From positions 1-64,000 of the forward strand of contig CACXYM010000006.1 of the NCBI GenBank assembly GCA_902771935.1: a stretch of 64,000 nucleotides of DNA. Direction: 5' to 3'. The notes beneath the pieces were generated by a model. It saw only the letters and a program-made list of their open reading frames with translations, did no database searches and was not told where the DNA came from. The DNA comes from an uncultured Bacteroidales bacterium. GTDB lineage: Bacteria; Bacteroidota; Bacteroidia; Bacteroidales; Paludibacteraceae. Of the stretch, positions 1 to 16,294 are shown in pieces. A program made the translations under genes and the position numbers. Every line of letters starts with the position of its first letter. Within the stretch, counting starts at the first letter, position 1.

Positions 1-272
1 CAAATCAACGTAGCGGTAACTAACTTTGCACCGGAAAGGATTGTATCAGATAAACGCGGATCTGCTGCGGACAAATGTATTCGTATAGAAACATATACTG
101 GCATAGCAGACAATTGCGGTATCGAGGGCGAAAAACAAAGCCCTCAAATGACAAGCATAAAGAAAAGAAAAAAATGGGGAGGGAGAAGGCTGCCATCACG
201 AATGGGTGGCGGCTATGCCCGTACTGATGTGTAGTAGTTGTGCCGGTAGCAGGCAGGAGGGAAAATAGCGAG

Positions 273-302
273 TCAGAACTGAACACTTGGAGGTCTGCCG
301 CC
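273..302. repeat. Hairpin repeat, copy 1 of 4
   Basis: Core CAGAACTGAACACTTGGAGG followed by TCTGCCGCC. The outer arms can pair weakly (CAGA with TCTG). The bases before it resemble those before copy 3: both read as a GCCGGTA block, a purine-rich run and AATAGCG. Confidence 0.7.
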
Positions 303-436
303 ATTTTCGCGCCGGTATTAGCATAAATGATAATCTATGCCAATACGCCTTCTACAGGAACAGCGTTCACATATCGGGCATGTGAGAAAGGAGCGGAGAC
401 GGAACAGCCGGGCGGCGGCGAGGCATGTTGAGGATA

Positions 437-463
437 GCAGAACTGAACACTTGGAGGTCTGCC
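437..463. repeat. Hairpin repeat, copy 2 of 4
   Basis: The loop is identical to copy 1. The arms are GCAGA and TCTGC, a perfect 5-bp stem. The core begins 164 bases after that of copy 1. Confidence 0.7.
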
Positions 464-570
464 CGAAAACACGCTGACCCAGAGCCCAGCCGTGGAGATA
501 GGCATGGGAGGAGAGCGCTCGTATTGCAAGAGGCGTATAGTTGCGCCGGTACTGGGTAGGTGCAAGAATA

Positions 571-604
571 GCGGTCAGAACTGAACACTTGGAAGTCTGC
601 CGCC
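571..604. repeat. Hairpin repeat, copy 3 of 4
   Basis: Arms GCGG-T-CAGA and TCTG-CCGC pair over eight bases with one bulged T. The loop differs from the others by one base (GGAAG for GGAGG). The core begins 138 bases after copy 2. Confidence 0.7.
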
Positions 605-733
605 ATTCTCAACCGGTTTCGTGCCTGGCGTTCAGGCAAAGAAAACCCAAAACTTGGGCAAATGCCTGCATAACGGGCGCGGTTTAGGAAGTGAAGGATG
701 TAACAGCAAAGTGGGGGGAGTGGCAAAGGCGAA

Positions 734-765
734 CGGTCAGAACTGAATACTTGGAGGTCTGACCG
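734..765. repeat. Hairpin repeat, copy 4 of 4
   Basis: Arms CGGTCAGA and TCTGACCG pair perfectly over 8 bp. The right arm reads GACC where the other copies read GCC, matching the changed left arm, which suggests the pairing itself is conserved. Core begins 162 bases after copy 3. Confidence 0.75.
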
Positions 766-1002
766 CGAGCCTTAACGACCAAAGCCTTGCCGTGGAGGAC
801 AAACGACCGTTGGGATGATAGCCTGCAGCAGCATGGCGCGGGAAAGCCGGACGCTCGCAGGGTGTATATGTCAGCCGGTACAGCAAAGGGCTGTAGTCAC
901 CCATCGGAGGTAGTTGCAGCCACCGGCAGGTAGAGTGAAGGGCGCAGCTGTTTAGTCAGGGCGAACAAACGTGACAGAAAGAGGCAGACCGTAGGTAGAT
1001 GA

Positions 1003-1039
1003 CAAAGAAAAACCGCCGACTCGTCACGAGCCAGCGGTT
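1003..1039 (-). terminator. Intrinsic terminator of the Big2 lipoprotein gene
   Basis: Bases 1011-1039 form a hairpin in which 12 of 14 positions pair (AACCGC with GCGGTT outside, CTCGT with ACGAG inside). On the minus strand it is followed by TTTTTCTTT. It lies about 20 bases after the stop codon of the lipoprotein gene. Confidence 0.75.
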
Positions 1040-1059
1040 CTTGAAGTTACAAAAAAATG

Positions 1060-2142
1060 TTATTGCCTATACCTATACGTAGTCTCAGTTGTGTATGAAT
1101 ATCCTGTGAAGTCGTAAACTGTCGTTTGTGTATAATCCCAATCATTATACCAAGTGAATGTACTATAGTATATATTTTCAGACTCAACTCCTTTGTTATT
1201 GCTATAAGTCCTATAAGTACACGATTTCCTACGTCCTCCCTCGAATTGATAAACATATTCGTTAAGTGAATATGTACCTTTTTCCAAATTTTCAGAGATT
1301 GTCACATGCCTCTTTGCAGTCCTATAATCAAATGACAAACCATTAAATTCAATTGTGTCCCTCATTAGATACCCATTCTCTCCATAATATATTCCATTCC
1401 CGTACCGGTATCCGGCCTCATATTTATAATGCCATTCCTGATTCTTCTCTCCAGCCACATATATAACAGACGAAATTTGACGATTACTAGCGTCATATTC
1501 ATACAAAAACTTAGAACCACTACTTCTTGATTCTTTAATATAAAGCCTTGCATCATCGAGGTAAATAGTCGTGTCTTTTGCACCTACAGAAGTACTTCCA
1601 TTATTGCAGTATGTACATACACCATACTGGTACAGTCCCGAATTGGTGTACTCCGTCTTTACAGTCATACCATCAACGCCGTACTGAGTGGTTGAAAGAA
1701 GGTATTTAGGGTCATCACCCCTTTCATATACAATCCTCATTACTACACCAGTATGCAAATCAATACCTTCTACATCAGAGTATGAGGTAATCAACTCAAC
1801 GCAATAAGCGGGTTTTTCTTCTACAGGGTCATCTCCTCCACCACTATCAGATGTCACAGTAACTTTACAAGTAGCCTTTTGATTATCTACGCTACTTGCG
1901 GTAATTGTGGCTACCCCCTCTTTGATACCTTGTACAAGGCCGGTGTTGCTAACACTTGCTACTGAATAATCAGAAGAAGTCCAAGTTACACTTACATTTG
2001 CAGATAATTGGATAGTTTCAGATACAGCGATTGAGACTTCAGACTTATTCAGTTTCAGTTTCTCACCTTGCGGCTCAACTTGAGGTTCTTTGCAAGCTGC
2101 CAGTCCGAGAACTGCGACAGCAAAAATTAAAAATTTCTTCAT
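1060..2142 (-). CDS. Big2-domain lipoprotein of unknown function
   Basis: A 360-residue predicted lipoprotein. The chosen start gives MKKFLIFAVAVLGLAACK, a classic signal peptide with a lipobox ending in LAAC, so the protein should be exported and anchored in a membrane, probably facing outward. Residues from about 30 to 100 form a bacterial Ig-like group 2 domain (pattern LNKSEVSIAV...VTWTSSD...VASVSNTGLVQGI..GVATITA). A GGGDDP linker follows. The last 240 residues are rich in Tyr, Thr and Ser and look like a beta-rich secreted domain that I do not recognise. An upstream in-frame ATG exists, but it would put six residues before the signal peptide. It stands alone with its own promoter and terminator. 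Confidence 0.8.
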   Translation of the reverse strand: MKKFLIFAVAVLGLAACKEPQVEPQGEKLKLNKSEVSIAVSETIQLSANVSVTWTSSDYSVASVSNTGLVQGIKEGVATITASSVDNQKATCKVTVTSDSGGGDDPVEEKPAYCVELITSYSDVEGIDLHTGVVMRIVYERGDDPKYLLSTTQYGVDGMTVKTEYTNSGLYQYGVCTYCNNGSTSVGAKDTTIYLDDARLYIKESRSSGSKFLYEYDASNRQISSVIYVAGEKNQEWHYKYEAGYRYGNGIYYGENGYLMRDTIEFNGLSFDYRTAKRHVTISENLEKGTYSLNEYVYQFEGGRRKSCTYRTYSNNKGVESENIYYSTFTWYNDWDYTQTTVYDFTGYSYTTETTYRYRQ

Positions 2143-2197
2143 ATTTTTATAGTTAATCATGTTCTTAATCTATAACCTTGCGCACGCAAATGCGGCG

Positions 2198-2228
2198 CAA
2201 AGTTACTATTTTTATTTCAATTATGCAA
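2198..2228 (-). promoter_or_regulatory. Bacteroidota promoter for the lipoprotein gene
   Basis: On the minus strand a -33 TTG (2226-2228) and a -7 TAACTTTG (2198-2205) are separated by exactly 20 bp. This TTG-N20-TAnnTTTG form recurs through the window. Confidence 0.8.
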
Positions 2229-2243
2229 ATATTCATTGCACAA

Positions 2244-2861
2244 TCAACAGAATTTAAGATTTTTTATTGGCTCTTTTAACATATTGAAAGAGACGAACTT
2301 ATCCAAATATGTATCATTAGCGATAATATTATCGTCTTTGCAAAAGAACAATACTGGAATTTTCTGCTTCTTTGCAATCATCTTCAGCAAATACATATTG
2401 GCCATAATAGCATATTCGAGCGAAGAAACCGCAAAGTCTGTTTTGATCAACGTGAGGTTGTCAACAACGATGACCTCAATGGCGTGTTTGTTGAGCAGAC
2501 AGATGCGTTGGATTGTGGCTTGTATAGAAGCGTAACTAAGTTCAGAGATGTCCTCTATCCAGATGGGGAGTTTTCCCATCTTATACAACATAAGGTGGCG
2601 GCGCTCAATATCGTCGAATTGAGCATCCGCATCGCACATTTGCCAATAGATATCAAATAGCATTTGGAACATCGTACGACGATCTTTCTCTAAAGAGAAA
2701 AGCAAGACACTATTGTCGCGCGTTGCCAGCCCCATTACCGTTTGGGCAATGAGGTTGGTGCGCCCTTCTTCGGCAGGGCTGCAGATGCAATATAGTTTGC
2801 CATCTTTCAGTCCACGTAAGCCTCTATCAATTTGTTCTATACCCGTTTCAAGTCCTTTCAT
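2244..2861 (-). CDS. DnaB-like RecA-fold protein with degenerate Walker A
   Basis: 205 residues matching only the C-terminal ATPase domain of replicative helicase DnaB. Matching elements in order: TGIEQIDRGL near the start, a P-loop at residues 28-36 reading SPAEEGRTN, FSLEKDR at 55-61 (DnaB FSLEM), IEDISELSYASIQATI at 102-117 (DnaB pattern of a short acidic strand then a helix), Walker B VIVVDN with Asp134, and a helix ending KKQKIPVLFF. The invariant Walker A lysine is arginine (R34), so ATP hydrolysis may be lost. The N-terminal DnaG-binding domain is absent. It overlaps the preceding gene by 4 bases (ATGA) and is the last gene of a three-gene operon. It may be a DnaB mimic or modifier instead of a working helicase; the homology is clear, the role is inference. 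Confidence 0.8.
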   Translation of the reverse strand: MKGLETGIEQIDRGLRGLKDGKLYCICSPAEEGRTNLIAQTVMGLATRDNSVLLFSLEKDRRTMFQMLFDIYWQMCDADAQFDDIERRHLMLYKMGKLPIWIEDISELSYASIQATIQRICLLNKHAIEVIVVDNLTLIKTDFAVSSLEYAIMANMYLLKMIAKKQKIPVLFFCKDDNIIANDTYLDKFVSFNMLKEPIKNLKFC

Positions 2862-3529
2862 GATAGATGGAATGGAATACCCTTTTTACTAAAATACATC
2901 GCCCCCATAACTCCGTTGGGTTGGAGCTTGAGCAAGAACTCAAGACGCAACTTGTAATCTTCTTTTTCGATAGAGGTACTTACTATCGTAGAAGTTGATA
3001 ACTGTGTCAGAGGTAGGTTGAGAATATATTTGGCTTTTATATAGCCAATCTCAAACCGCTTCTGCAAGCGAGCACATGCGTCTTGTGGATTTTGAGATTG
3101 TCGAATGAGCCGGATGACCTCCTCCAGGTTCTCAGCCGCGACTTGCTGGCCGTCTAATTCTTCAAGGTGGCGTTTGGCGGCGTTGATTTCCGCGTTAACA
3201 TGCCCCATCATATACCAAGCGGAGGTATGAAGCAAGCTTATATTGCGGAAGCAGATAGAATATTCATCCAAGGCTTCAAATTCCTCAGCCTCATCCTCCT
3301 CCATCTCTTTGAGATAAGAGTTGGGAAGAGAGGTGAAAGTTTGTTTGTACATCTCGATGTAATGCTGCAAGAAGGCGGCACGTTCTGGGCTGTCAGCTTG
3401 CGACACTTCTTGCTCAACACTTTCGATAGGACTAAAGCCGAAATTTTCCAAGAAGGAGATGTCTTTGTAATTTGGCATATTGATGATGGCTTGTCCATCT
3501 GTAGTGAAGTCTAATAAATTGGGGCTCAT
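2858..3529 (-). CDS. Protein with GyrA-type coiled-coil/C-gate segment
   Basis: 223 residues. Residues about 117-205 resemble the coiled-coil tip and C-gate of type IIA topoisomerase subunit A: AAKRHLEELDG, then EEVIRLIRQSQNPQDA at 136-151, a 'RLQKRFEIGYIKAKYIL' helix, and NLPLTQLS at 171-178. GyrA reads 'VIALIRASK..EA..GLM.RF.LSE.QAQAILDM.L..LT' in the same order. The catalytic tyrosine, the winged-helix domain and the beta-propeller of GyrA are all absent. Residues 1-100 are acidic and unrecognised. It sits between a nuclease gene (11 bases upstream) and a DnaB-like gene (4-base overlap). It could dimerise through the C-gate fold or bind gyrase or topoisomerase IV; that is inference. Confidence 0.7.
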   Translation of the reverse strand: MSPNLLDFTTDGQAIINMPNYKDISFLENFGFSPIESVEQEVSQADSPERAAFLQHYIEMYKQTFTSLPNSYLKEMEEDEAEEFEALDEYSICFRNISLLHTSAWYMMGHVNAEINAAKRHLEELDGQQVAAENLEEVIRLIRQSQNPQDACARLQKRFEIGYIKAKYILNLPLTQLSTSTIVSTSIEKEDYKLRLEFLLKLQPNGVMGAMYFSKKGIPFHLS

Positions 3530-3540
3530 AAGTGTATTAG

Positions 3541-5352
3541 TTATTTATTATCATTTGAATTACGCGGAAAGCGAGCGTCCATTACCTTTTGGAATGTCGC
3601 GGGGAAGTTCATCTTGAGCCACGAAGTGCGGAGGAAGAGGACGCAGCGTCCGTAACAATGCTCACGGTTGATAGTTATGCGTGTGCCATCCGCATATGGA
3701 CGATCGCCAAAGATGTGTATCATATCTTCGAACGAGGGATTATCAAGTCCGCGAAGTCGGTCCATATCACACCGACCGAAATAGGTGTATTGGAGCCAAT
3801 TGTCATCGCTCATGAAGAACCGAAGTAGTTCCGGGGAGTCGTAGGGGATAGCTGCGAAGTTGATGTCGATGCCAAGGTTAGCGATAGTCTGCTCGACGAT
3901 GTCCAAGATGTAATAATAGCGATACACAATCTTAGACGCCAGTTCGCCGTATTTCTCCTGCGTGTATTGGTCGGCAAAAGCAGTTCCGGGTTTGGATAGT
4001 TCGATGAATAAGTCCGGGAAGCTGGGGCGGTAGAACATACCTGCTTCGCTGAGGTTCGCGCCGAGGGGGTCGATGTCGGTTATACCGAGGCAGTAGGCCA
4101 CGACGCTGCCAGCGGTTCGGTTGCCTCCGGGAGAAGTACAGAAGCGGTTGCTATGCAGTTCGCGCATCAGATCCCACATGATGAGGAAACGGTCTGCCCA
4201 ATGACGAACGCGGATGGCTTTGAGTTCACGTTTGATGCGAGCGGCTACTTCGTCGGTGTAGTTGTTTTGGTAGCGCTTCTGTGCACCTTCCATGACGACA
4301 TCAATGAGATAGTGGTCAGCAGTGTCGTAGCCTTCCGGCAGCGCGAAATGCGGTTGCGGAGTGAGCACATAGCGATTGTCGAGATAGTCGGCCAACGGCT
4401 TCTGCATTTGGGACTGCACCTCTTTGAAGAGTTCGGGATAAGAGATGATGAAACGAGACAACAAAAGCGGTTCATCCATTTCCTTTTGCAGGTGCTCAAA
4501 GAGCAGTTCGCCGAGCAGATACGGATAGGACTTCTCCTCCGCATTGAGGTCACCGAAGAAGTCGTCCACCTTTTCAGGGCGGCAGTAGAGCAGATTGCTG
4601 AAGACGAACTCGGTGTGGGCACCGATTTTCTCCATTACTTCTGGCTCTATGAACGGGTTATTGGCTTTGAACCAAGCAAGTGCGTCGGCATCGTGCATAA
4701 CGTTGGTGATACCGATGAGGTGGCTGACATTCTGCTTGATGCCTGCAAAGTAGCCATTTTTCTGCTCGTTGTAACGAAGCGCCATCTTGATGAAGGACTG
4801 AATGTAGGGGTTGCCTTTGTAGTAGCAGGCATGCTTAAAACAAGCGTCCGCGAACTCTGCCTCTTGGTGGTGAGAGTGCTCGGTGAATTTGCTTTCGATG
4901 CAAAGCATAGCCGCGCAATCATCACTGATGAGCACGACGTCCATGTTGGACGGGTGATTGACTGGGCGCCCTTTGGTGGTCTTGGTGAAGATGGGGAACT
5001 TTACTTCGAAATAGACCTTGTCGTAGGTTGTGCCGTTGAGCGTGAGCGGGTGCTCCGGACTGATCCAATGGAAGAAATTGTACGCAAGCATGGACGATGA
5101 GAAGATAGAACGTGCGTGGGCAACGTGGAGCTTGCCGTTCTCATCGGTGTAGTCTTCGAGTTCGTGACCGTTTCCTGCGAGAAACATATCATGGAACTTG
5201 CCTTCGGTGAGGGCTTTGCGTCCGCCGACATAGACGTTCTCGGCGTAGGTGGCTAGGTGTGTGTCTGGGCGGTCTTCAAGAAAGAGGGGTACTTGACGGA
5301 GGTGGTTGGTTGACTCTTTGGTCGTGTTGGTGATTTTAATGTTGCGATTCAT
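3541..5352 (-). CDS. PD-(D/E)XK nuclease-like protein, long form
   Basis: 603 residues, unrelated to known metabolism but with a restriction-endonuclease-like core near the N-terminus: VYFEVKF around residue 116, SNMDVVL with Asp138, then LCIESKF with Glu153 and Lys155. The Asp-Xn-Glu-X-Lys layout is the PD-(D/E)XK signature. It shares this region, including SIFSSSMLAYNFFHW, with the 295-residue protein encoded at 5519-6406, so the two are paralogues. The C-terminal 400 residues are specific to this copy and unassigned. I recall a Bacteroidota family annotated as PGN_0703-type putative restriction endonuclease that may be the same; this is from memory. First gene of an operon with the GyrA-like and DnaB-like genes, behind an unusual promoter. 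Confidence 0.7.
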   Translation of the reverse strand: MNRNIKITNTTKESTNHLRQVPLFLEDRPDTHLATYAENVYVGGRKALTEGKFHDMFLAGNGHELEDYTDENGKLHVAHARSIFSSSMLAYNFFHWISPEHPLTLNGTTYDKVYFEVKFPIFTKTTKGRPVNHPSNMDVVLISDDCAAMLCIESKFTEHSHHQEAEFADACFKHACYYKGNPYIQSFIKMALRYNEQKNGYFAGIKQNVSHLIGITNVMHDADALAWFKANNPFIEPEVMEKIGAHTEFVFSNLLYCRPEKVDDFFGDLNAEEKSYPYLLGELLFEHLQKEMDEPLLLSRFIISYPELFKEVQSQMQKPLADYLDNRYVLTPQPHFALPEGYDTADHYLIDVVMEGAQKRYQNNYTDEVAARIKRELKAIRVRHWADRFLIMWDLMRELHSNRFCTSPGGNRTAGSVVAYCLGITDIDPLGANLSEAGMFYRPSFPDLFIELSKPGTAFADQYTQEKYGELASKIVYRYYYILDIVEQTIANLGIDINFAAIPYDSPELLRFFMSDDNWLQYTYFGRCDMDRLRGLDNPSFEDMIHIFGDRPYADGTRITINREHCYGRCVLFLRTSWLKMNFPATFQKVMDARFPRNSNDNK

Positions 5353-5380
5353 AACTTCAAAAATTTAAATATTATGAATC

Positions 5381-5420
5381 TATAATACGAAAGAGGGTTG
5401 TTATCGTTTTTGCTAATTTT
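5381..5420 (-). promoter_or_regulatory. Bipartite conserved promoter or operator, nuclease operon
   Basis: On the minus strand a 23-bp box (5398-5420, core GCAAAAACGATAACAA), a 6-bp gap and an 11-bp box TTCGTATTATA (5381-5391) precede the start codon by 28 bp. The same two boxes with the same gap and nearly the same distance occur at 7945-7984. There is no TAnnTTTG element here. Confidence 0.7.
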
Positions 5421-5434
5421 GCGTGCTGGACGAT

Positions 5435-5474
5435 ACAAAAAAGCCTCATATACAATAAGATACGAGGCTTTTAG
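5435..5474 (-). terminator. Intrinsic terminator after the short nuclease
   Basis: AAAAGCCTC and GAGGCTTTT form a perfect 9-bp stem with a 17-base loop. On the minus strand it is followed by a T-run, ending the regulator-nuclease operon just upstream of the next operon's promoter. Confidence 0.8.
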
Positions 5475-5518
5475 GGGTTCGGAGTGATGGAGAGAAAAAA
5501 TGCGATTTTATTGTTTTT

Positions 5519-6406
5519 TTAGCATTTTTCAGCAAAATTCATATATCGTCTCTCCAAAAATGCCTTTCTGTTTGTGTCCGAAATTTGGTTTCTCATCAGA
5601 CTCCATATTTGAGAATAGCTAAACCACATAGGACGAATAAAATAATCGGGCAGATCCTTTATGAACTCGTCGTACAAATTCTTATAGGCGTCATATTTTC
5701 TTTTTTCAGACTTATATTCAGTAGTATCCGGACAGAATATAGCGTTTGCAAATAATATATCAACTTTTCCCAAGTCTTCAATCTTCAGTTCACCGTTATG
5801 AGTATTAAACCAGTCACGAGCTTTTTTGTTTTCCAAAGCACCCAGCGCAACCAAATGACAGAACCCTTGCTTAACTCCACCATAGTAGTTCTTCTGTTGT
5901 TCTCTCATCTCGGAGTATAACCTCATCAGTTCTTTGGCTTTCTCATAGAAGGGAGAAGCAACATAATAGTTCTTTCCCATGTATGATTCCGATAGATCAA
6001 ATTTTTCCGAACTTGTGTATTCGAGGAATTTGGATTCGATAAAAAGCAGCACCCTACGACCATCCTTTATACCATCAAGTACAATATCCATGTTTGCGGG
6101 ATTGCTTCGACATTTCAATGTGCGAAGTTGAGTCTCAAAATATACCTTAGTATACTTGACGCCTTTCCAAACAAAAGGATGAGCCTCGTCTATCCACCCA
6201 AAGAAATTATAGCCCAACATAGAGGATGAATGAAGGGCTCTTGCTTTAGTTTGCAGTTCCTTCCCAGAACCGTGCTCAAACATCTTCCGATGCTCATCAA
6301 TCATATGATGACAATATACATTATCCAAATATGAGTTGACATATCCTTTATCGTCAACAATTCCTTCATTAAAGGCCTTGCGGAGAGCGGTTTTAAGATT
6401 GCTCAT
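5519..6406 (-). CDS. PD-(D/E)XK nuclease-like protein, short form
   Basis: 295 residues with the same core as its 603-residue paralogue: VYFETQL with Glu91, NPANMDIVL with Asp107, and LFIESKF with Glu124 and Lys126, giving a complete PD-(D/E)XK active-site set. A conserved ALHSSSMLGYNFFGW block precedes it (residues 57-71). The remainder is Lys/Tyr rich and unassigned. The start overlaps the end of the XRE regulator gene by 14 bases, so the two are translated together. It is followed by a terminator. Expected activity is DNA cleavage, possibly as a restriction-like or mobile-element nuclease; the substrate cannot be told from sequence. Confidence 0.7.
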   Translation of the reverse strand: MSNLKTALRKAFNEGIVDDKGYVNSYLDNVYCHHMIDEHRKMFEHGSGKELQTKARALHSSSMLGYNFFGWIDEAHPFVWKGVKYTKVYFETQLRTLKCRSNPANMDIVLDGIKDGRRVLLFIESKFLEYTSSEKFDLSESYMGKNYYVASPFYEKAKELMRLYSEMREQQKNYYGGVKQGFCHLVALGALENKKARDWFNTHNGELKIEDLGKVDILFANAIFCPDTTEYKSEKRKYDAYKNLYDEFIKDLPDYFIRPMWFSYSQIWSLMRNQISDTNRKAFLERRYMNFAEKC

Positions 6407-7028
6407 TTTCCAGATCTTTTATAAGTTGTTTAAAATATTTTGTTTCCTTTACGCGCTTAGCAGACCAGTTAAGCATGTAATAGTGCTCTTTGCGCACTTG
6501 TGCGACGAGCTGCTTTTCCAGTGCTTCCCGCTCTTTCTCGCGCGCAATCTCCGCGCGTTCTTCAATATTATTAGGTGTGGTTTCTGCGGGGATGCTTTCC
6601 AAACGGATGTCGAGTACATCGGCTATACGCACTAAAGTCTTATAAGTGGGCGAAGTCTGTCCGCTTTCGATATGACAATAATTGGGAGCAGCAATGCCCA
6701 CCATCATGGCCACGTCGCGTGCTTTTAGGCCTCGCTGAAGGCGCACCTGACGGATCAGTGCGCCGATGTTCTGACGGCTCTGCTCGTCGTCGAAATAGAG
6801 ACGCGGAGTGAATCCCTCTTTCTTGCACTGCTTAATGACAAAAGCAATGATGTCCAGTTTGTCGGCGGACTTATAGTCCTCATAGAACAGATGATCAAGG
6901 CGATTAGCCATCCATTCGTGGGTTATCTTGCCCTTTTCGGGGGGCAATTCCAACGAACAGAATAACTCGCCTTGCATCGTGTAGATACGGGCAATATTGC
7001 CATTCTCCAAAGTTACTTTAACTTCCAT
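6393..7028 (-). CDS. XRE-family regulator with large flanking domains
   Basis: 211 residues from the chosen start (MEVKVTLENG). Earlier in-frame ATGs would lie upstream of the promoter, so they are rejected. Residues about 90-145 hold an HTH_XRE domain: IGALIRQVRLQRGLKARDVA, then MMVGIAAPNYCHIESGQTSP and a closing RIADVLDI helix. The first 85 residues form a small alpha/beta domain of a type seen in Bacteroidota helix-turn-helix proteins; the C-terminal part is a charged helix. A palindrome covering its transcription start suggests it represses itself and the nuclease gene that overlaps its 3' end. The pair resembles a controller-protein plus nuclease arrangement. Confidence 0.8.
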   Translation of the reverse strand: MEVKVTLENGNIARIYTMQGELFCSLELPPEKGKITHEWMANRLDHLFYEDYKSADKLDIIAFVIKQCKKEGFTPRLYFDDEQSRQNIGALIRQVRLQRGLKARDVAMMVGIAAPNYCHIESGQTSPTYKTLVRIADVLDIRLESIPAETTPNNIEERAEIAREKEREALEKQLVAQVRKEHYYMLNWSAKRVKETKYFKQLIKDLENEQS

Positions 7029-7046
7029 GCGCCAAAAATTTGGCGC
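7029..7046. promoter_or_regulatory. Palindromic operator in the XRE-nuclease promoter
   Basis: GCGCCAAA (7029-7036) and TTTGGCGC (7039-7046) are perfect 8-bp inverted arms separated by 2 bp. It fills the gap between the -7 element and the ATG, covering the expected transcription start. Likely bound by the adjacent XRE regulator. Confidence 0.7.
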
Positions 7047-7076
7047 AAAGGTACACTTTTTTTCTGACATATGCAA
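7046..7076 (-). promoter_or_regulatory. Promoter of the XRE-nuclease operon
   Basis: -33 TTG (7074-7076), 20-bp spacer and -7 TACCTTTG (7046-7053) on the minus strand. The leader is only about 10-18 bases and is occupied by the palindrome. Confidence 0.8.
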
Positions 7077-7084
7077 GAAAAAAG

Positions 7085-7303
7085 TTAGGATTTCCGCTGA
7101 AACCACTCCAGTACCGTGTAATAAGCGGTCAAAATCCAATACTTCAAAAGCGGATGGTGGGAGCAGGTTCTGTGCGGATATTCCTCATCCGAAAGATACA
7201 TATCTGCCATACCCAAAGCCTTACCGACATTTTCATAGGTTCCGTAGACCACAAAGATGGTCTTTCTCTCCGGACCGTAATACAATTCACCTCGATAGAT
7301 CAT
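7085..7303 (-). CDS. Small hypothetical protein (72 aa)
   Basis: Unrecognised 72-residue protein with many aromatic residues (MIYRGELYYG at the start, YWILTAYYTVLEWF near the end). It overlaps the upstream SLOG gene by 4 bases (ATGA) and is the third gene of that operon; the coupling is the main argument that it is real. No signal peptide or clear membrane segment. Confidence 0.6.
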   Translation of the reverse strand: MIYRGELYYGPERKTIFVVYGTYENVGKALGMADMYLSDEEYPHRTCSHHPLLKYWILTAYYTVLEWFQRKS

Positions 7304-7647
7304 ATCTTAATTATGTTTACTCGTTTACCAGCCTTTTCCATTTTGCGAATCGAATCGTACGTACCTTTCGATTCTCCAGACGGGAAGGCAATCATCCGGT
7401 CTGCATCATCGACGATGAGCGTGTTCCGCATCAGCGGAGCCCTGCGACCATAAGTCTCATAGTCGGGGAGATGCTCAATCAACGGCAGGTTGTTATCTTC
7501 CGCATAGCGCTTAGCGTAGGCATCGATGCCCGCTGCGCCACCGGAAACAACCGCATCCACTTTGTAAAAGATCACTTGCCCAAGTTTTTCTTTAAATTGC
7601 TCGTACGAGATACTTGGATTTCTCGTACCGACGATAGCCAATTTCAT
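7300..7647 (-). CDS. SLOG-fold protein, DprA/YpsA-like
   Basis: 115 residues from MKLAIVGTRNP. The Rossmann-like SLOG motifs are clear: an N-terminal beta strand with GTRNPS, AVVSGGAAGIDAYAKRYA near residue 35, NLPLIEHLPD and a RRAPLMRNTLIVDDADRMIA stretch, then a GTYDSIRKMEKAGK helix. This is the DUF2493/YspA type of SLOG domain, related to nucleotide-binding or sensing proteins; several members are linked to phage conflict systems. The longer reading frame upstream overlaps the sigma-like gene and is rejected in favour of the ATGA overlap at 7644-7647. Middle gene of a three-gene operon. Confidence 0.8.
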   Translation of the reverse strand: MKLAIVGTRNPSISYEQFKEKLGQVIFYKVDAVVSGGAAGIDAYAKRYAEDNNLPLIEHLPDYETYGRRAPLMRNTLIVDDADRMIAFPSGESKGTYDSIRKMEKAGKRVNIIKI

Positions 7648-7916
7648 TGCAATCTCCTTTCCATAGCTTTCCGAACGAACCAAACGGCATAAGGGACAAA
7701 TTTGCAACCAGAGGCGGGGTCGTACTGACGCCAAGCTTCCAACAGTCCTTCCTCGCCGAACGGGATAAGTTCCTCCATCGGGAGCGTATTGCCGTTCTGT
7801 TTTTGACGGCGAGCGACAGACTCCACAAAAGGATGAAACTGCTGTTTGACTTGTTCTTCAGACAAATTTTTAACACCGGACTCAACGTCCGAAACTGATT
7901 TTAAAGTCTCTTTCAT
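7644..7916 (-). CDS. Sigma-70 region 2-only protein
   Basis: 90 residues. From about residue 24 to 88 it follows region 2 of sigma-70 factors: FHPFVESVARRQ, then LPMEELIPFGEEGLLEAWRQ, YDPASGCKFVPYAVWFVRKA and MERRLQ at the C-terminus. In full sigma factors this part binds the core polymerase clamp and melts the -10 element. Regions 3 and 4 are missing, since the protein stops straight after region 2. It leads an operon with the SLOG protein (4-base overlap) and uses the same unusual promoter as the nuclease operon. It may redirect or inhibit host polymerase, or be a partial sigma factor needing a partner; neither can be decided here. Confidence 0.75.
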   Translation of the reverse strand: MKETLKSVSDVESGVKNLSEEQVKQQFHPFVESVARRQKQNGNTLPMEELIPFGEEGLLEAWRQYDPASGCKFVPYAVWFVRKAMERRLQ

Positions 7917-7944
7917 ATCAATAAATTTTAGAACGCTATGTATA

Positions 7945-7984
7945 TATAATACGAATAATGTTTGTTATCGTTTTTGCTAATTTT
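7945..7984 (-). promoter_or_regulatory. Bipartite conserved promoter or operator, sigma-like operon
   Basis: Same layout as at 5381-5420: the 23-bp box at 7962-7984, a 6-bp gap, then TTCGTATTATA (minus strand) at 7945-7955, 28 bp before the start codon. The two sites agree at every base of both boxes. Confidence 0.7.
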
Positions 7985-8197
7985 TTGCCCGCGTTAGGGA
8001 TTGGAACGGGCAAACTTGGTACGAAGTGCGGAACTTGTGAACCCCTGCAAAGCCCGACCGACGTAGCTCTGGAGATGAGTGGATCTGCAGAACTATGCCG
8101 GGAACGCCCAAACCTTTATAGTCGGACAAAATACTACGACGACAGTCATACAACAGATAAGGATGCAAGACATCCGGAAGAGCCTGCGACCGGTCTG
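7985..8197. other. Intergenic region with hairpin, no clear gene
   Basis: TTTGCCCG (7984-7991) and CGGGCAAA (8007-8014) form a perfect 8-bp stem directly beside the promoter box. A 63-codon minus-strand frame (7977-8168) and a plus-strand frame cross the region, but neither has recognisable content. Composition is more GC-rich than the flanking genes. It could hold a small RNA. Confidence 0.4.
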
Positions 8198-8223
8198 AAA
8201 AAAAATGGAGGACTAAGCCTCCA
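8198..8223 (-). terminator. Strong intrinsic terminator
   Basis: TGGAGG and CCTCCA form a 6-bp stem, followed on the minus strand by eight T residues. It lies 4 bases after the stop codon of the 79-residue protein gene and ends that transcript. Confidence 0.85.
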
Positions 8224-8226
8224 AAT

Positions 8227-8466
8227 TCATTTCATGAGCGGGTTCGGATTGCGCTTTGTTTTGCCCTGTGCGCGGGCTGCAAGCTCCGTAAATACAAGGC
8301 AATTCAAGCCGTAAATTTTCCAGTACTGCTCGTTATCTCCGGCGAGCTGTAATGAAGTATAACCGGTGACAAACTCCATGTGTGACATGATGGTTTGACA
8401 GGAAGAGAGGATGGACTCCAGCTGCTCTTCTGTGCAGCGAACGAGAATTTGTTGAATAGGAATCAT
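8227..8466 (-). CDS. Small hypothetical protein (79 aa)
   Basis: Unrecognised. It starts MIPIQQILVRCTEEQLESIL and has a helical look with a basic C-terminus (QGKTKRNPNP). No signal peptide. It lies 11 bases after the upstream 8478-8759 gene on the same strand and is followed at once by a strong terminator, so it is the last gene of a small operon of three unknown proteins. Confidence 0.6.
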   Translation of the reverse strand: MIPIQQILVRCTEEQLESILSSCQTIMSHMEFVTGYTSLQLAGDNEQYWKIYGLNCLVFTELAARAQGKTKRNPNPLMK

Positions 8467-8477
8467 AGAAGTAATTG

Positions 8478-8759
8478 TTAAAAGTTATACTTATAGGCTT
8501 CAGCTCTCATAGCTTCGAATTCAGCCAGTGCTCTCGCATTCTTGCGCTCATGCGCCATCTCGCGCTCCAATTGAGCGTAGAGCCATGCGCCACGGCCGTA
8601 CATTAAATCCTTTTCAAGTTCCATTTGAGCTTCGAACTCTGCTCTGGAAATGGAGTAGCGGACCGTATTTGTTTCGCGCTTAACTTCTTTCTGCGTAAGA
8701 GAAACTTGCTCTTGAACGCACTCGAAATCAAAACTGAGTTGTGTAACTTGATTTTTCAT
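8478..8759 (-). CDS. Small hypothetical protein (93 aa)
   Basis: Charged helical protein beginning MKNQVTQLSFDFECVQEQ and rich in Glu, Arg and Ala (FEAQMELEKDL, AQLEREMAHERKNARALAEFEAM). Probably a long helix or coiled coil. A start ten codons earlier (8789) would lie inside an intergenic hairpin, so the internal ATG is preferred. Function unknown. Confidence 0.6.
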   Translation of the reverse strand: MKNQVTQLSFDFECVQEQVSLTQKEVKRETNTVRYSISRAEFEAQMELEKDLMYGRGAWLYAQLEREMAHERKNARALAEFEAMRAEAYKYNF

Positions 8760-8784
8760 AAAGCCATTCTTTTTAGAGGTGATT

Positions 8785-8810
8785 GCCACCCGCCATTTGA
8801 GGCGAGTGGC
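8785..8810. other. Intergenic hairpin
   Basis: GCCACCCGCC and GGCGAGTGGC pair at nine of ten positions with a 6-base loop. It sits between two minus-strand genes and lacks a minus-strand T-run, so it may be a processing or translational element instead of a terminator. Confidence 0.5.
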
Positions 8811-8819
8811 TTTCTACAT

Positions 8820-9206
8820 TTATGCTTGACAAACTGCTTGCGGTACGTAAAAGTGGGTGATGGGGAAGAAGGTGTATTGTTCACCTGTTTCTTTGTTCTG
8901 ACGGCTTACCGGCTTGCCCCAAGCAGGGAAACGAGTGAGGTTGTTATCGAATACTCTGTAGCCTTCACGTTCCCATTGCTCGCGGGTTTTCAAGATGGGG
9001 AGATTGTGCAGCTCTTTGTAATAGATGCAGAGGAGATTGTTAATGCGCTCTTCTGTGCCGTACTTCTCGCGGAGTTGCTTGCAGAGTGCTCGAAGCGACT
9101 GACGCTCTGTTAAGGGTTGTGCTACAGCATTGTTGTTCACTTCAACTGCCTGGTTGTTTTTCTTAGATGCTTTCATAACTGTACTGTTTTTTGAATTGTT
9201 TAACAT
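8820..9206 (-). CDS. Hypothetical protein (128 aa)
   Basis: Unrecognised protein. The first 35 residues are Asn/Lys-rich and probably disordered; an internal ATG 10 codons in (MKASKKNNQ, 9176) is an equally good start. Residues from about 35 contain a helical stretch (RQSLRALCKQLREKYG) and then an aromatic-rich part (REQWEREGYRVFDNNLTRFPAWGKPV, here given only as its key residues W, Y, F, W). First gene of the small-protein operon ending at 8227. No TAnnTTTG promoter was found just upstream. Confidence 0.55.
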   Translation of the reverse strand: MLNNSKNSTVMKASKKNNQAVEVNNNAVAQPLTERQSLRALCKQLREKYGTEERINNLLCIYYKELHNLPILKTREQWEREGYRVFDNNLTRFPAWGKPVSRQNKETGEQYTFFPITHFYVPQAVCQA

Positions 9207-9754
9207 ATTGTTTTGAGATTTGTTTCTTTTACAATGCTTTCAGAGTTGACGCCAGTGAAGTTCGACATTCCGTGAACAGCAAGACTTCCGAAAAATTTAC
9301 TACCTCTTGAGGCTGGAGAAATTTTAAGCAAGACTTTGCGCCGGAACATGTTTAGCCTTGCCATACGGAAAGAACCAACTACCTTTGCATTGCTAAAAGG
9401 AACGACATAAATCTCATAAGTGAACTATGCAGCGCAACCGATGAACGGTAGCACCGAGTACTACAAGCCCGTGGGAAAGGCACAGTAAGCATTGAATCTT
9501 CCTCCTATTACAAGCAGCACAAGACCATTAAACCTGCGAGGGAAACAAAGGCAAAAGGGTACGATACTCACCCGCTCGCCGAAATAAGCCATACAGTAAG
9601 AACAAGAAACATATTCCACAACTGCCACAACCAGTATTTACAAGGGAAAGCAGTAAGCAAGAATGTGGAAATGACCTCGATATTGTGGAAAACAGTAGAA
9701 AAGAAAGGCTATGAAAAAATCAACGCAACACAGATGACCTCTATTTCGACGCAA
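9207..9754. other. Intergenic region, possible gene remnant
   Basis: No annotated gene. A plus-strand promoter-like pair occurs at 9358-9387 (TTG, 19-bp spacer, TACCTTTG). Downstream, a plus-strand frame is open from 9452 to 9829 (125 codons) but has no ATG, GTG or TTG near its beginning, and a 15-codon frame starts at 9441. This could be a decayed gene or an RNA; I cannot assign it. Confidence 0.4.
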
Positions 9755-9970
9755 CGGATTCAACAGTTTCAACAGAAAGATAAGTTATTCATTTATAGGT
9801 ATTTATCTATTATACTATTTGTTGAATAGATATTATAAATGTTGTAGAATGTTGAAAATGGTTCTTACGGGCTGTTGCAGGGTGTTGAAAAATGTTGAAA
9901 GGGTGTTGAATGGTGTGGGCATGATAAAGTGCGCAAAATGAACGTGTTGCAGTTGTTGAAAGCGTTGAAC
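9755..9970. repeat. Iteron-like TGTTGAA cluster, possible origin
   Basis: TGTTGAA occurs six times in direct orientation (9820, 9850, 9883, 9893, 9904, 9954) and its complement TTCAACA twice (9759, 9768) within about 200 bp; near-matches with TGTTGCA or CGTTGAA lie between them. AT-rich DNA at 9781-9845 adjoins the cluster. Next to a primase-helicase gene this arrangement suggests a replication origin with iterons. Spacing is irregular, so the call is tentative. Confidence 0.45.
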
Positions 9971-10008
9971 GGCATTTCGCGACAAGTGAACCTTTCCGCA
10001 AAGACATG

Positions 10009-10037
10009 AAAAATGCCGCCCTTTGAGTGAGCGGCAT
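10009..10037 (-). terminator. Intrinsic terminator of the primase-helicase gene
   Basis: ATGCCGC (10013-10019) and GCGGCAT (10031-10037) form a perfect 7-bp stem, followed on the minus strand by TTTTT. It is 20 bases after the stop codon. Confidence 0.8.
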
Positions 10038-10056
10038 CGTAGTGGAGAAGCGGATG

Positions 10057-13000
10057 TTATTCATCCTCGTTGGTGAGACCATAGACCACATCGAGGTTGA
10101 CTCCGTACTGCTCGACAATCATATCATAATCGAAGCAATAGGCTTGATCGAGCACCGACTCCGTGGTGAGACCGGACTGCCCATCCGGGACACTGGATTG
10201 CGTGTAGCCCTGGATGACGTTCTTGAAACGGAACGAGCGTTTCTTACCGAGGTACGCAGGCGAGTGCTCCATATAGAACGGCAGTGAAGACTTAGCCAGC
10301 AGCGACTCGCCGATCTTCTTGCTATGCAGTTGATAGAGTTCAAAGACACGTTTATAACGCAAGTACAGGATTTTCTTGGGTTCGGCGAACTCTATTTGCG
10401 AGGAACTGCTGTCCACCTTGAGGTGCGAGACGGTTTCTATACGATAATCCGCCTGCATGCACAGATGGCCTTCGGTACGCAGAAAACTGATGATATCCCA
10501 AAGCGTAGCTACTTCGTTGTTACGCTTGGTTTCCTTATTCTGCTCCATGATGCCATCGACTGCAATCGAAAGCAAATCGGTATAGGTGAACGGCAAATCC
10601 AAACGGTTCTGCAGGCAATGGAATGCCGCCAAGACAGAAGCCCAGTTATTGGCAATACGATCCTCGACACCTTTGTTCTCAAGCGCCTTGCGCAAGTCCT
10701 CTTGCACTTGTTTATAGGAATGTGCGTACTCGGCTTCGAACAATGCACGGTTACGGAGAATGTCCATTGTCAGATGTGAGCATCCCATCTTTCGGAGCTC
10801 TTTGAGACGTTGGAACTTCATCTTGGATTCGGGTGTGAACTCGGATTTGTCGTAACGCAAGAAGATGAAACGTGAGAACAGGGCAATGTCGGCAGTAGCC
10901 ATCTCCTGCCCGGAGAGGATGATGCCGGAGTTAACGCGCGTCACCTCGCGTTTCTTGTCCTTGTCCATGTTCATGCGGTTACGACCGGTGCCATCCCAGA
11001 GACCTTTGAGAAACTCCCGTTTGTCGATGTCGATGGTGTTCTTGAACTCATCGATATGCACGAGGGCATTGGCACATTGCGCCACGGCATCTGCGAGCGC
11101 AGGAAGCGTGGAGTTCTGGATGTTCGGCGGCGTGTTCTCGATGATGAAGAACGACATGAGCGAGTGACCAAGTTCGGACTTACCGGAGCCTTTTGGACCA
11201 AACAGATTGAGGATGGGGAACGACTTGGTTTGCGCCGTGACGACGTCGCGAAACAAGGTAGCCAGCAGAAATGATAGTCCGACTTTGGCGTTGTCACCGA
11301 AAACGTCTATCAGTTGCTCTGCGTATGTGCGTAACGTGACCTTGCCTAATCCGTAGTGGACGAAGCTCCGCTCGAACTGATAGAGCGATTTCTGCTTCTC
11401 ATAGATCGAGGAGAATGCCGGCAGATAGAAGTTGCCTTGGTCACCCAAGCGCACGATACCGAAGTCGTCCACTTTATGCCACGTACGACCATCGAAGATG
11501 CCGTTGCCAAAAGCAAAGAAACCTTTGTCCTGCCAACCGAGTTGGGTGATGGGCTCCGCCGTTTCGGTAGCTTTGTATAGGAACTGCTTGAGGCGTGTCA
11601 ACTGTTCCTCTTTTGCCAACCAGATATAGTTGCCGATGGACTCTATCTTCTGCTTGAAACGGCTCAAACTGACCAGATCTTCCGCCTTGAACTCGATGAT
11701 ACGTTTCTCGTGATCCTCGTTCTCAATCTCAAAGAGACGGAGCGCATTGGATCCGCCATCTGATATATGGAATAGCGGACGAAGGAGGAAGTTGGACCAT
11801 TGGAGAATCTTGCCATTCGCACCGATGGAGATATACGCATTACCTCTGGTCTGAAAGCCGTATTTCTCGAAGAGGTCGAGGTAATGCGAGTTCTGATCGT
11901 TACAGCGAAGTGACTCCTCGCGACGGTTCTGTTGTGCCGCATGAATCGCCTTGCGCCACATGGACTTACCTTGGATGACATCGTGAAGCAGATTGATGTA
12001 CCGATCTACCTCATACTCACGCTCAAGGCGACCTAAAAGGAACGCCACTTTGTCCACAATCTCCGTGGGCGAGAGGCCTTGCGTCTGAATGAGCTTCTGG
12101 GCATACCAAACGGGGAAATCCTGCGTCTCAAGATCGTCGTAGAGCAGGCGCGATTTGCAGAACGAATCTGGATCCTGCTTACGACCTTCTTGACCTAACG
12201 GAATCTCCTTGACGCTCACGTCAAAACCGAGATTCCAGGCTTGGACAGCGGATTTCATGACCTTCTGAATGCCGGTTCCATACGGAGTGCCCACTTTCGG
12301 GCAGTCCGCATCGGGCATGAAGATCAGTTTGGTAGCATTCCGTTGCAGGACTTTGAACTGCTCATCCGTCCAATCCGAGCCCAACGAAGCGACCGCGTTG
12401 AGGATACCGATGGACTGCAGACGCAGCACATCAGGCGCACCTTCAACGAGGACAAAAGCGCCTTCTTTAGTGGCAGCATTGGCGGCTAATTCTATACCGA
12501 AAACAGACTGACTCTTCTGATAGATGAGGCTATTAGCAGAGTTGAGGTACTTGGGCGTTTTGTCGTCATCCGCCATCGTGCGTGCCGTGTAACCGATGAT
12601 GCGGTTGTAGCGGTCGCGGATGGGGATCATGATACGAGCACGGAAGAAATCATAGTCGCTACGATTCTTATCCGAGTGTGCAATGAGTCCCATCTGCTTG
12701 AGTAGTTCATCAGATAGGGCATGGCTCTTCGCATAAGTAATAAGACCATCCCACGAATCGTATGCGAAGCCTATACCGGCTTCTTCGACGAAGTCCTTGC
12801 CCCACCGATTGACGGCATAGTTGTAAGCTGCACGTGCATGGTCATCGGTATTATGAATATTGGCTACATAATATTTCTGCACATGGACGTAGGTGGCTTC
12901 CATCGCTTCGCGAAGTTTTGCCTCTTCCTGTTCCTCCGGTGTACGCTCACGCGTATCTTCTTCTATAGGAATATGGAATTTATTAGCTAAATGGCGCACG

Positions 13001-13245
13001 GCTTCCGGAAAGTCCAATCCTTCTTTCTTTTGGATGAAAGCAATAGCATCACCGCCTTCGCCGCATCCGAAACAATGCCATGTGTTCCGCGCGGGATTAA
13101 TATGGAGAGAGGGCGTTTTCTCATGGTGTAATGGGCAACAGCATTTAAGACTGCTGCCTGACGGATGCAAGGTAGTATAGTCAGAGACAACGTCTTTGAC
13201 CATCACCTGCATACGTACTGATTCTATGGTTCTATTGGATATCAT
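10057..13245 (-). CDS. Primase-helicase of a mobile replicon
   Basis: 1062 residues. Order of domains: CHC2 zinc finger (Cys37, His40, Cys58, Cys61 in CPLHHEKTPS...WHCFGCG), DnaG-like RNA-polymerase domain, Toprim near residues 265-340 (FVLVEGAPDVLRL and FMPDADCP), a long linker domain, then an AAA/SF3-like ATPase with Walker A FGPKGSGKSE near residue 683 and Walker B ALVHIDEFKN near 729. The Toprim DxD is replaced by DAD. DnaG primase-helicase fusions of this kind replicate phages, plasmids and satellites, while host chromosomes use separate DnaG and DnaB. It follows a small putative DNA-binding protein gene and is followed by a terminator and iteron-like repeats. Strong sign that the island can replicate or did so. 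Confidence 0.9.
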   Translation of the reverse strand: MISNRTIESVRMQVMVKDVVSDYTTLHPSGSSLKCCCPLHHEKTPSLHINPARNTWHCFGCGEGGDAIAFIQKKEGLDFPEAVRHLANKFHIPIEEDTRERTPEEQEEAKLREAMEATYVHVQKYYVANIHNTDDHARAAYNYAVNRWGKDFVEEAGIGFAYDSWDGLITYAKSHALSDELLKQMGLIAHSDKNRSDYDFFRARIMIPIRDRYNRIIGYTARTMADDDKTPKYLNSANSLIYQKSQSVFGIELAANAATKEGAFVLVEGAPDVLRLQSIGILNAVASLGSDWTDEQFKVLQRNATKLIFMPDADCPKVGTPYGTGIQKVMKSAVQAWNLGFDVSVKEIPLGQEGRKQDPDSFCKSRLLYDDLETQDFPVWYAQKLIQTQGLSPTEIVDKVAFLLGRLEREYEVDRYINLLHDVIQGKSMWRKAIHAAQQNRREESLRCNDQNSHYLDLFEKYGFQTRGNAYISIGANGKILQWSNFLLRPLFHISDGGSNALRLFEIENEDHEKRIIEFKAEDLVSLSRFKQKIESIGNYIWLAKEEQLTRLKQFLYKATETAEPITQLGWQDKGFFAFGNGIFDGRTWHKVDDFGIVRLGDQGNFYLPAFSSIYEKQKSLYQFERSFVHYGLGKVTLRTYAEQLIDVFGDNAKVGLSFLLATLFRDVVTAQTKSFPILNLFGPKGSGKSELGHSLMSFFIIENTPPNIQNSTLPALADAVAQCANALVHIDEFKNTIDIDKREFLKGLWDGTGRNRMNMDKDKKREVTRVNSGIILSGQEMATADIALFSRFIFLRYDKSEFTPESKMKFQRLKELRKMGCSHLTMDILRNRALFEAEYAHSYKQVQEDLRKALENKGVEDRIANNWASVLAAFHCLQNRLDLPFTYTDLLSIAVDGIMEQNKETKRNNEVATLWDIISFLRTEGHLCMQADYRIETVSHLKVDSSSSQIEFAEPKKILYLRYKRVFELYQLHSKKIGESLLAKSSLPFYMEHSPAYLGKKRSFRFKNVIQGYTQSSVPDGQSGLTTESVLDQAYCFDYDMIVEQYGVNLDVVYGLTNEDE

Positions 13246-14438: not shown

Positions 14439-15029
14439 CTATTTTTTACTTTTATTTTCTAAAAGTTCTAATTTTTCAAAGAGTTGATACATCTGTGAAT
14501 AAGAGATTTCTGCTCCTTCATCATGCAGTTCAACGGACCGTTTGGCTAAGTTCAATGCTTTTTCAAGGTCACCATGCTGGGACAGAAATTCATAGAGCCT
14601 GATACGCTGAAAGTACTTCTTGGTTTTCTCGTATCCAGGCATGTACTTGCATAGCTCTTTTGCTACTGCTTCATAATCTGCATACTTCCGGTGCGAAGGT
14701 TTGGGCATAAAGTGCATTAGGAACCAATATTCAGTACACGGATCTGTCTCTATAAATGTTACCTTTTGAAAGATCCTTTGTTGTTTGGCTCTATGATAAG
14801 CTTGCTTCTCTGAAGGATGCGTATTCAATCTATCCATGTCTAATAGACAGATAATCTCATCATACCCCTCGGTGACACATTGTCTCGCTTCTGCAAGTAA
14901 ATGCTTTATATCCGAGTGCTGCGGAATAGAAGGACGCATTTTAAATGGATAATGACCAACTATACGTAGAGAGTCAATATAAAACCATTCAGTTATTCCT
15001 TCGCCAAAGATTGCGATACTCTTTTTCAT
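14439..15029 (-). CDS. rloB: RloB-like Toprim-family protein
   Basis: 196 residues in the RloB family. Key motifs: IAIFGEGITEWFYIDSL (the Toprim glutamate), ICLLDMDRLNTH (acidic pair) and IETDPCTEYWFLMHF, a hallmark of RloB. Such Toprim-like proteins act as nucleases, often as the toxic half of a defence pair with an AAA ATPase. Its start overlaps the RloA gene by 4 bases (ATGA), so the two are coupled. Together they resemble RloAB, OLD-like and PARIS-type anti-phage systems. The full active-site set appears present. Confidence 0.8.
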   Translation of the reverse strand: MKKSIAIFGEGITEWFYIDSLRIVGHYPFKMRPSIPQHSDIKHLLAEARQCVTEGYDEIICLLDMDRLNTHPSEKQAYHRAKQQRIFQKVTFIETDPCTEYWFLMHFMPKPSHRKYADYEAVAKELCKYMPGYEKTKKYFQRIRLYEFLSQHGDLEKALNLAKRSVELHDEGAEISYSQMYQLFEKLELLENKSKK

Positions 15030-16240: not shown

Positions 16241-16263
16241 AGTTGTAAATCTTAAATTTGCTG

Positions 16264-16294
16264 CAAAATTACAAATAAAAATTGAATTATACAA
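16264..16294 (-). promoter_or_regulatory. Promoter of rloAB
   Basis: On the minus strand TTG (16292-16294), a 20-bp spacer and TAATTTTG (16264-16271), 24 bases before the ATG. Confidence 0.8.

Follow-up and report, generated by a model that had tools for sequence, protein, structure and literature searches.

Nuclease genes of uncultured Bacteroidales that share loci with degenerate copies of DnaE, GyrA, DnaB and sigma-70, possibly baits for phage proteins

Composition of the nuclease operon

The DNA studied here is a stretch of 64,000 nucleotides (the window; positions 1–64,000 of contig CACXYM010000006.1, assembly GCA_902771935.1, also coded G000) from an uncultured Bacteroidales bacterium of the Paludibacteraceae, and our subject is a set of three open reading frames (ORFs) on its minus strand, genes A, B and C. 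Gene A (3541–5352, 603 amino acids (aa)) encodes a predicted nuclease half and a DnaE-like half, gene B (2858–3529, 223 aa) a predicted GyrA C-gate segment, and gene C (2244–2861, 205 aa) a DnaB C-terminal RecA-type domain. An earlier note on this DNA had described the three genes as coupled, and their layout confirmed this, with an overlap of 4 bases between B and C and a gap of 11 bases between A and B. In the window and its relatives, the loci of PD-(D/E)XK-type nuclease genes carry a regulator of the XRE or WYL type and conserved, mostly catalysis-broken copies of DnaE, the GyrA C-gate, DnaB and sigma-70 region 2, and the copies are linked to the nuclease genes by fusion, operon or a common element. 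We propose that these copies may serve as baits or decoys.

The nuclease half of gene A (approximately residues 30–330; 4363–5265, minus strand) belongs to the REase-ARP family of the PD-(D/E)XK type, as residues 63–173 matched Pfam PF22558 with an E value of 5.5e-9 (36.5 bits, cut-off 27). A second, stand-alone nuclease of the same family, gene D (5519–6406, minus strand, 295 aa), matched at 33.5 bits. The catalytic D...E-x-K residues were retained, D138 being invariant and E153 and K155 present in at least 90% of 24 aligned rows. By family, and in the case of A by these residues as well, A and D are PD-(D/E)XK nucleases, as the earlier note had proposed for A, and DNA cutting is predicted for both. 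The name and description of PF22558 mention no DnaE, GyrA or DnaB, and the name REase-ARP was not found in the open-licence literature searched. The likeness of A to the Shedu (SduA) nuclease is one of common nuclease fold only; Shedu is not known to have replication-protein copies.

The remainder of gene A (approximately residues 331–603; 3544–4362, minus strand) is a compact polymerase III (Pol III) alpha core that the earlier note had missed. Residues 348–472 matched Pfam DNA_pol3_alpha (E 1.5e-20), the half as a whole aligned to host DnaE 277–471, 614–691 and 793–846, and the predicted structure suggested that the overall Pol III alpha core fold is retained. The catalytic residues of DnaE are D401, D403 and D555 (E. 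coli numbering, letters checked in K-12). Gene A keeps D401, has F at 403 and a deletion at 555, and an active polymerase is therefore not expected. At least one of the three residues was lost in 15 of the 17 DnaE copies audited, a set formed without L071 and the near-copies L037, L041, L045 and L048.

Gene B matched an NCBIfam topoisomerase model (E 5.2e-10) and, at 30.6 bits and just below the cut-off of 31, Pfam DNA_topoisoIV (E 2.2e-7). In a profile–profile alignment by hhalign with three GyrA sequences, B 89–206 aligned to host GyrA 359–493 over 118 columns (96.8% probability, E 2.3e-10). The domain with the active-site tyrosine of GyrA is absent from B, the host RYT motif beginning at 143, outside the aligned region. 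These sequence matches identify B as a GyrA C-gate segment, in agreement with the earlier note. That note had also named predicted structures as a check on the GyrA and DnaB matches. A structural match was obtained for the DnaE half of A; the model of B was poor (predicted local distance difference test (pLDDT) score of 44), and the identity of B is thus drawn from its sequence.

Residues 3–173 of gene C matched Pfam DnaB_C (E 1.1e-17), and the Walker A lysine is replaced by arginine (EEGRT in C, AMGKT in host DnaB, QERT in the relative L038), both as had been noted earlier. C stops before the later part of the DnaB C-terminal domain and has no N-terminal domain ahead of it. In genome G037, gene A is 818 aa long and runs nuclease, DnaE, degenerate DnaB C domain and DnaB N domain (DnaB_N, E 1.4e-21). 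The DnaB domains of this ORF (L038 8861–11317) are thus in swapped order, and its DnaB_C match scored 21.8 against a cut-off of 27. The host genes proper lie elsewhere in the genome of the window; their products were 37% (DnaE), 30% (GyrA) and 21% (DnaB) identical to the DnaE part of A, to B and to C, respectively.

The nature of these pieces raises a doubtful alternative to baits, namely that each copy takes the place of the real subunit in a working replisome, gyrase or RNA polymerase, whether the host's or a phage's, which would then stall while the nuclease is delivered to the fork; no phage inhibitor would be required. In its favour, the copies represent central portions of subunits active at forks and promoters, and they have lost ATPase and polymerase residues in the manner of dominant negatives. 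Judging from the parent structures, C could in principle be built into a DnaB ring, and B could form part of a C-gate dimer. However, the DnaE copies aligned only as far as host residue ~834–856 (apart from loose tails in L038 and L042; L071 is too short to judge), and so lack the C-terminal part of DnaE, which binds the clamp and tau. In addition, the deep divergence from the host proteins makes mixed assemblies uncertain.

Relatives and modularity of the system

A search of 399 genomes with gene A identified eight nuclease-DnaE proteins, including that of the window (G000, G177, G037, G186, G153, G107, G057 and G125), and several further proteins that matched the nuclease part only. In profile searches of 358 genomes of the family, the nuclease profile was found in 20 and the B profile in 8. 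The A profile, run on 393 genomes of the order, was swamped by ordinary DnaE; the matches listed included a single nuclease beyond the window, that of G317. Scanning genome contigs yielded 21 loci, all from uncultured organisms or metagenome-assembled genomes (MAGs), assigned to Bacteroidales, Paludibacteraceae, Bacteroidaceae, Prevotellaceae, Bacteroidetes and Kiritimatiellae; a gut site was named for nine of them.

Copies were counted in a panel of 31 loci gathered with A and B as queries, the panel seeds including copies from these same loci. A DnaE copy was present in 21 loci, a GyrA-type segment in 14, a sigma-70 region 2 copy in eight and a DnaB copy in three. The earlier note had proposed a conserved neighbourhood as a check. 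The exact A-B-C trio was found in only three of the 31 loci (G000, G177 and G037), but the pairing of nuclease and DnaE copy recurred in 21, in some loci with a GyrA-type segment and in others without; every locus with a DnaE copy also had a nuclease-type gene. The 840-aa ORF in G399, a normal gyrA gene, was excluded from these counts. The eight sigma copies include that of G090, split in two ORFs, that of G125, which has no Pfam report and was recognised by the panel alone, and that of L071, which scored 23.5 against a cut-off of 24. The split copy of G090 lies at L051 6418–6679.

The arrangements were varied. In four genomes (G062, G170, G072 and G066) the nuclease ended in a stop and was followed by a GyrA-type segment fused to DnaE, and in G155 by a segment-PHP-DnaE fusion of 881 aa; G146 had a similar fusion that has no nuclease domain. 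In G153, G107a, G090 and G007 the gene after B was a DnaE copy, and in G002 it was an 816-aa PHP-DnaE. A sigma tail closed a nuclease-DnaE protein in G125, and sigma and DnaE fragments occurred in L071, a Bacteroidaceae MAG.

Full B proteins were found in eight of the 31 loci (G000, G177, G037, G153, G107a, G090, G007 and G002). The other six of the 14 GyrA-type loci (G062, G170, G072, G066, G155 and G146) had short segments of ~50 aa, 40–48% identical to B over ~44–58 aa. In Pfam these matched FtsK_gamma alone, below the cut-off (E 3.9e-5 to 0.03). By BLAST, four scored to GyrA at 0.0008–0.004 and to FtsK at 0.018, and those of G155 and G146 to FtsK only, at 0.06–0.07. The segments before DnaE in L044 (9615–11012) and L046 (4452–7097) resemble gene B and, weakly, FtsK gamma. 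An 83-aa ORF upstream of an A-type nuclease (L069 58–309) appeared GyrA-like by eye and scored 0.022 to E. coli GyrA by BLAST; it had no Pfam match and was left out of the panel count.

Sigma cassette, regulators and shared element

A cassette at 7085–7916 on the minus strand encodes a 90-aa sigma-70 region 2 fragment (7644–7916), a SLOG-type protein with DNA_processg_A and YAcAr matches (7300–7647; start chosen by eye, the listed ORF reaching 7734) and a 72-aa protein (7085–7303). Pfam matched the fragment to region 2 only and the host factor to regions 1.2, 2, 3 and 4; the fragment was 36% identical to the full sigma-70 factor of the same genome. No Pfam family was found for the 72-aa protein of the window or for the 94-aa protein of related cassettes. 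Proteins of 91–94 aa without a recognised family stand at comparable points of the cassette in four of the XRE loci (L118 1920–2204, L113 10304–10588, L114 7766–8041 and L051 8625–8909).

An operator- or promoter-like element, TTAGCAAAAACGATAAC followed by a short gap and TTCGTAT, lies upstream of A-B-C (5385–5416, minus strand), and a second copy lies upstream of the sigma/SLOG cassette (7949–7980, minus strand), which ties this cassette to the operon. In window positions 1–10200 the operator-like pair was the only repeat of at least 40 bases. The element is common to the XRE loci, upstream of cassettes. Its pattern had 13 sites in seven of 178 genomes of the genus, every one in loci of this set, and the reversed pattern had none; the eighth XRE locus, G002, carries two close variants. 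No site was found in five of the six WYL loci scanned (a scan that did not take in L048 and L071), and the sixth, L042, had one unrelated site with two mismatches.

Gene E, an XRE/HTH_3 regulator (6393–7028, minus strand; start taken from comparison with relatives, ORF listed to 7139), is the presumptive binding protein of the element. Relatives of E adjoin the set in eight of the 31 loci and WYL regulators in eight, with weak WYL matches more than 5 kb away in G177 and L072 excluded; Pfam confirmed WYL in all seven of these WYL loci that were scanned. WYL regulators of the BrxR family have been tied to defence loci (PMC9122601).

A further alternative to baits is that the inactive parts of polymerase, helicase and sigma factor act as DNA-binding domains and guide the nuclease to phage DNA that is single-stranded, melted or in primer-template form. 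The DnaE palm and fingers, the DnaB ATPase domain and sigma region 2 all contact DNA in their parent proteins, the fold predicted for the DnaE part of A would suit such a role, and the short segment of the L044 type weakly resembles the DNA-binding FtsK gamma domain (the E 3.9e-5 match below the cut-off). On the other hand, the GyrA C-gate, which full B proteins represent, is not a main DNA-binding part of its parent, and in the window B and C are chains separate from the nuclease. We consider this explanation unlikely.

Origin and maintenance of the copies

In a DnaE tree of 42 rows, the DnaE of the host genus grouped with nine of the copies (support 92/94), and seven others, including that of the window, stood apart with weak placement. 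The L074 copy formed a sister pair with the incomplete DnaE of the Kiritimatiellae genome that carries it (100/100; 64% identity over 313 residues), and L071 was unplaced. The bootstrap of this tree had not settled, and long branches led to the A group, L053 and L071. A single clade for 16 copies was rejected by the approximately unbiased (AU) test (p 0.0026), which supports at least two captures from cellular DnaE. The AU tests left out L071 and L053, and their groups were set after the first tree had been seen; L003, L023, L026 and L029 were dropped from identity, tree and AU analyses as duplicates or as not being DnaE.

Ratios of non-synonymous to synonymous substitution (dN/dS) between the window and L038 (G037) were 0.07 for B, 0.25 for C, and 0.14 and 0.18 for the DnaE and nuclease parts of A. 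Further pairs for which a ratio could be computed gave 0.12–0.32, with the exception of a C pair at 99% identity and with almost no changes (0.51); no ratio was obtained where dS was saturated or for five comparisons of the DnaE part of A. These low values indicate that the proteins are kept although enzymatic residues have been lost, and decay of the genes is not favoured.

Phage DnaE-type polymerases are sequence relatives of the DnaE copies. Those of two named phages, ~1030 aa in length, formed a separate branch from the copies in the tree. Neither a relative of A (in a search that detects close relatives only) nor one of B was confirmed in viral contigs, the operator-like element was absent from the viral contigs searched, and none of the plasmid and phage sequences covered 80% of A. 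A phage origin of the copies is therefore not favoured, a verdict for which the tree held just two named phages and unverified 'Bacteriophage sp.' DnaE that groups with cellular DnaE. The records concerned (L119, L121, L123 and L124), from human faeces, may be bacterial contigs.

The same data bear on whether the set is a remnant of a phage, plasmid or satellite replication module, with the nucleases as cargo and the fragments as decaying genes. A DnaG-type primase of 1062 aa, with zinc ribbon, DNAG_N and Toprim matches in Pfam, lies at window 10057–13245 and may mark a mobile element; a primase-like ORF is also found upstream of the system in G037 (L038 1096–4290), and DnaE, nuclease and sigma genes lie close together in the two named phages. 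We regard a remnant as very unlikely in view of the low dN/dS, the separate branch and lack of viral or plasmid matches described above, and the one dedicated element that precedes the cassettes.

A possible bait model for the copies

Based on these findings, we speculate that the genes form a modular nuclease system, most likely anti-phage, in which the copies act as baits, and we would give this a probability of roughly 0.4. The baits would keep surfaces that are bound, on the real DnaE, GyrA, DnaB and sigma factor, by phage shut-off or hijacking proteins. A phage protein settling on a bait would release or switch on the linked nuclease, which would then cut phage or cell DNA and end the infection. 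The way in which baits, nucleases and fusions are shuffled between loci would be accounted for if different bait sets covered different phages. We count for this reading the joining of nuclease and DnaE in one chain, the repeated capture, the broken catalysis, the low dN/dS, the shared element, the nearby AbiL genes and the WYL regulators. The earlier note's interpretation was partly supported. Its idea of a nuclease with mimics is strengthened, as DnaE and sigma-70 copies have been added to it, the arrangement recurs, and most of the audited DnaE copies are catalytically broken; the decoy role is an inference.

Several observations weigh against baits. Ten of the 31 loci (G011, G102, G317, G399, G207, L067, L069, L070, L072 and L073) had no recognised copy beside the related nuclease, the G102 locus being cut by a contig end, and collection of the loci through A and B means that the co-occurrence counts are not population rates. 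The DnaE copies were only 29–49% identical to DnaE of the host genus, so that their surfaces may differ. Those of L114 and L074 retain all three aspartates, which suggests that a capture starts out as an entire polymerase core and is inactivated subsequently. Joining the A group and the nine-copy group in one clade was not rejected by the AU test (p 0.3), and these may be one capture. We are unsure of the six short segments counted as GyrA-type, which by sequence are equally FtsK-gamma-like. Searches of PADLOC-DB 2.0.0 gave no match for A, B or D, and for C only Csx1 at E 0.024. Finally, B covers approximately the fragment GyrA14, but all six B proteins aligned have proline at the position of E. 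coli R462, a residue tied to CcdB binding; a decoy for a CcdB-type gyrase poison is accordingly not favoured.

The bait model has a parallel in plants, where integrated-decoy immune receptors combine an immune protein with a duplicate of a host protein that is under attack, and such copies have been gained repeatedly. The comparison is one of analogy, as receptors and effectors differ. Tentatively, the system could be a bacterial integrated-decoy immunity, in which nucleases carry changeable, dead copies of replisome and transcription proteins, captured repeatedly from hosts and placed under a dedicated regulon, and phage attack on the real proteins trips the nuclease. Among bacterial systems, a logic similar to that proposed for the baits is found in PARIS (AriA-AriB) and Ronin: once a counter-defence protein of the phage has bound to a defence protein, an effector is set free or activated, and PARIS has been termed a decoy of a phage decoy (PMC12409349). 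These systems sense anti-restriction proteins and have other effectors, and the consulted text mentions no DnaE, GyrA, DnaB or sigma copies in them (PMC12409349). In the titles and abstract openings of the open-licence literature searched, no nuclease system with such copies was described.

If the baits are real, bacterial immunity would guard essential replication and transcription proteins by copying them, comparably to plant integrated decoys, and whatever binds the baits would provide a handle on phage takeover proteins. No system known to us accounts for the way in which cellular DnaE has been repeatedly captured, and disabled, next to nucleases, and this would still matter if the copies turned out to serve docking or DNA reading.

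Other features of the window and related loci

The window also contains a known defence system some 9 kb away from A, an AbiLii/AbiLi pair (RloB and AAA_21) at 14439–16294. In L040, L042, L053 and L114, genes next to the sets matched REase-ARP above the cut-off, and one further neighbour fell just below it. DUF6946 proteins also adjoin the sets in related loci by Pfam; this family has been described as putative restriction endonucleases (PMC10584680). For a further type of neighbour, in L045 and G177, the nuclease nature was read from a motif by eye only.

Window 903–6329 is 94% identical in DNA to L037 (G177). At the protein level gene D was only 60% identical between the two, and a lipoprotein at 1060–2160 was 100% identical; with the DNA identity, this indicates that pieces seem to have been recently exchanged.

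Gene A opens with a leader of ~20 aa (5293–5352, minus strand) within a region of low model confidence (pLDDT below 50 for residues 1–28). Its pattern, MRKIKITN..ESTNHLQKV, begins A in the window and in several loci, and similar leaders start a nuclease-like gene (L045), GyrA-like genes (L113 and L114) and a DnaE-like gene (L118). The shared leader may serve as a tag for docking, or it may reflect recombination at the 5' end. At L115 1288–4134 the A leader runs directly into a GyrA-type segment and PHP-DnaE, the nuclease domain being absent; in L046 that domain is a separate gene. A-type nucleases with a shortened N end occur at L047 5522–6352 and L048 512–1342, and in the L047 nuclease T and C replace the active-site E and K.

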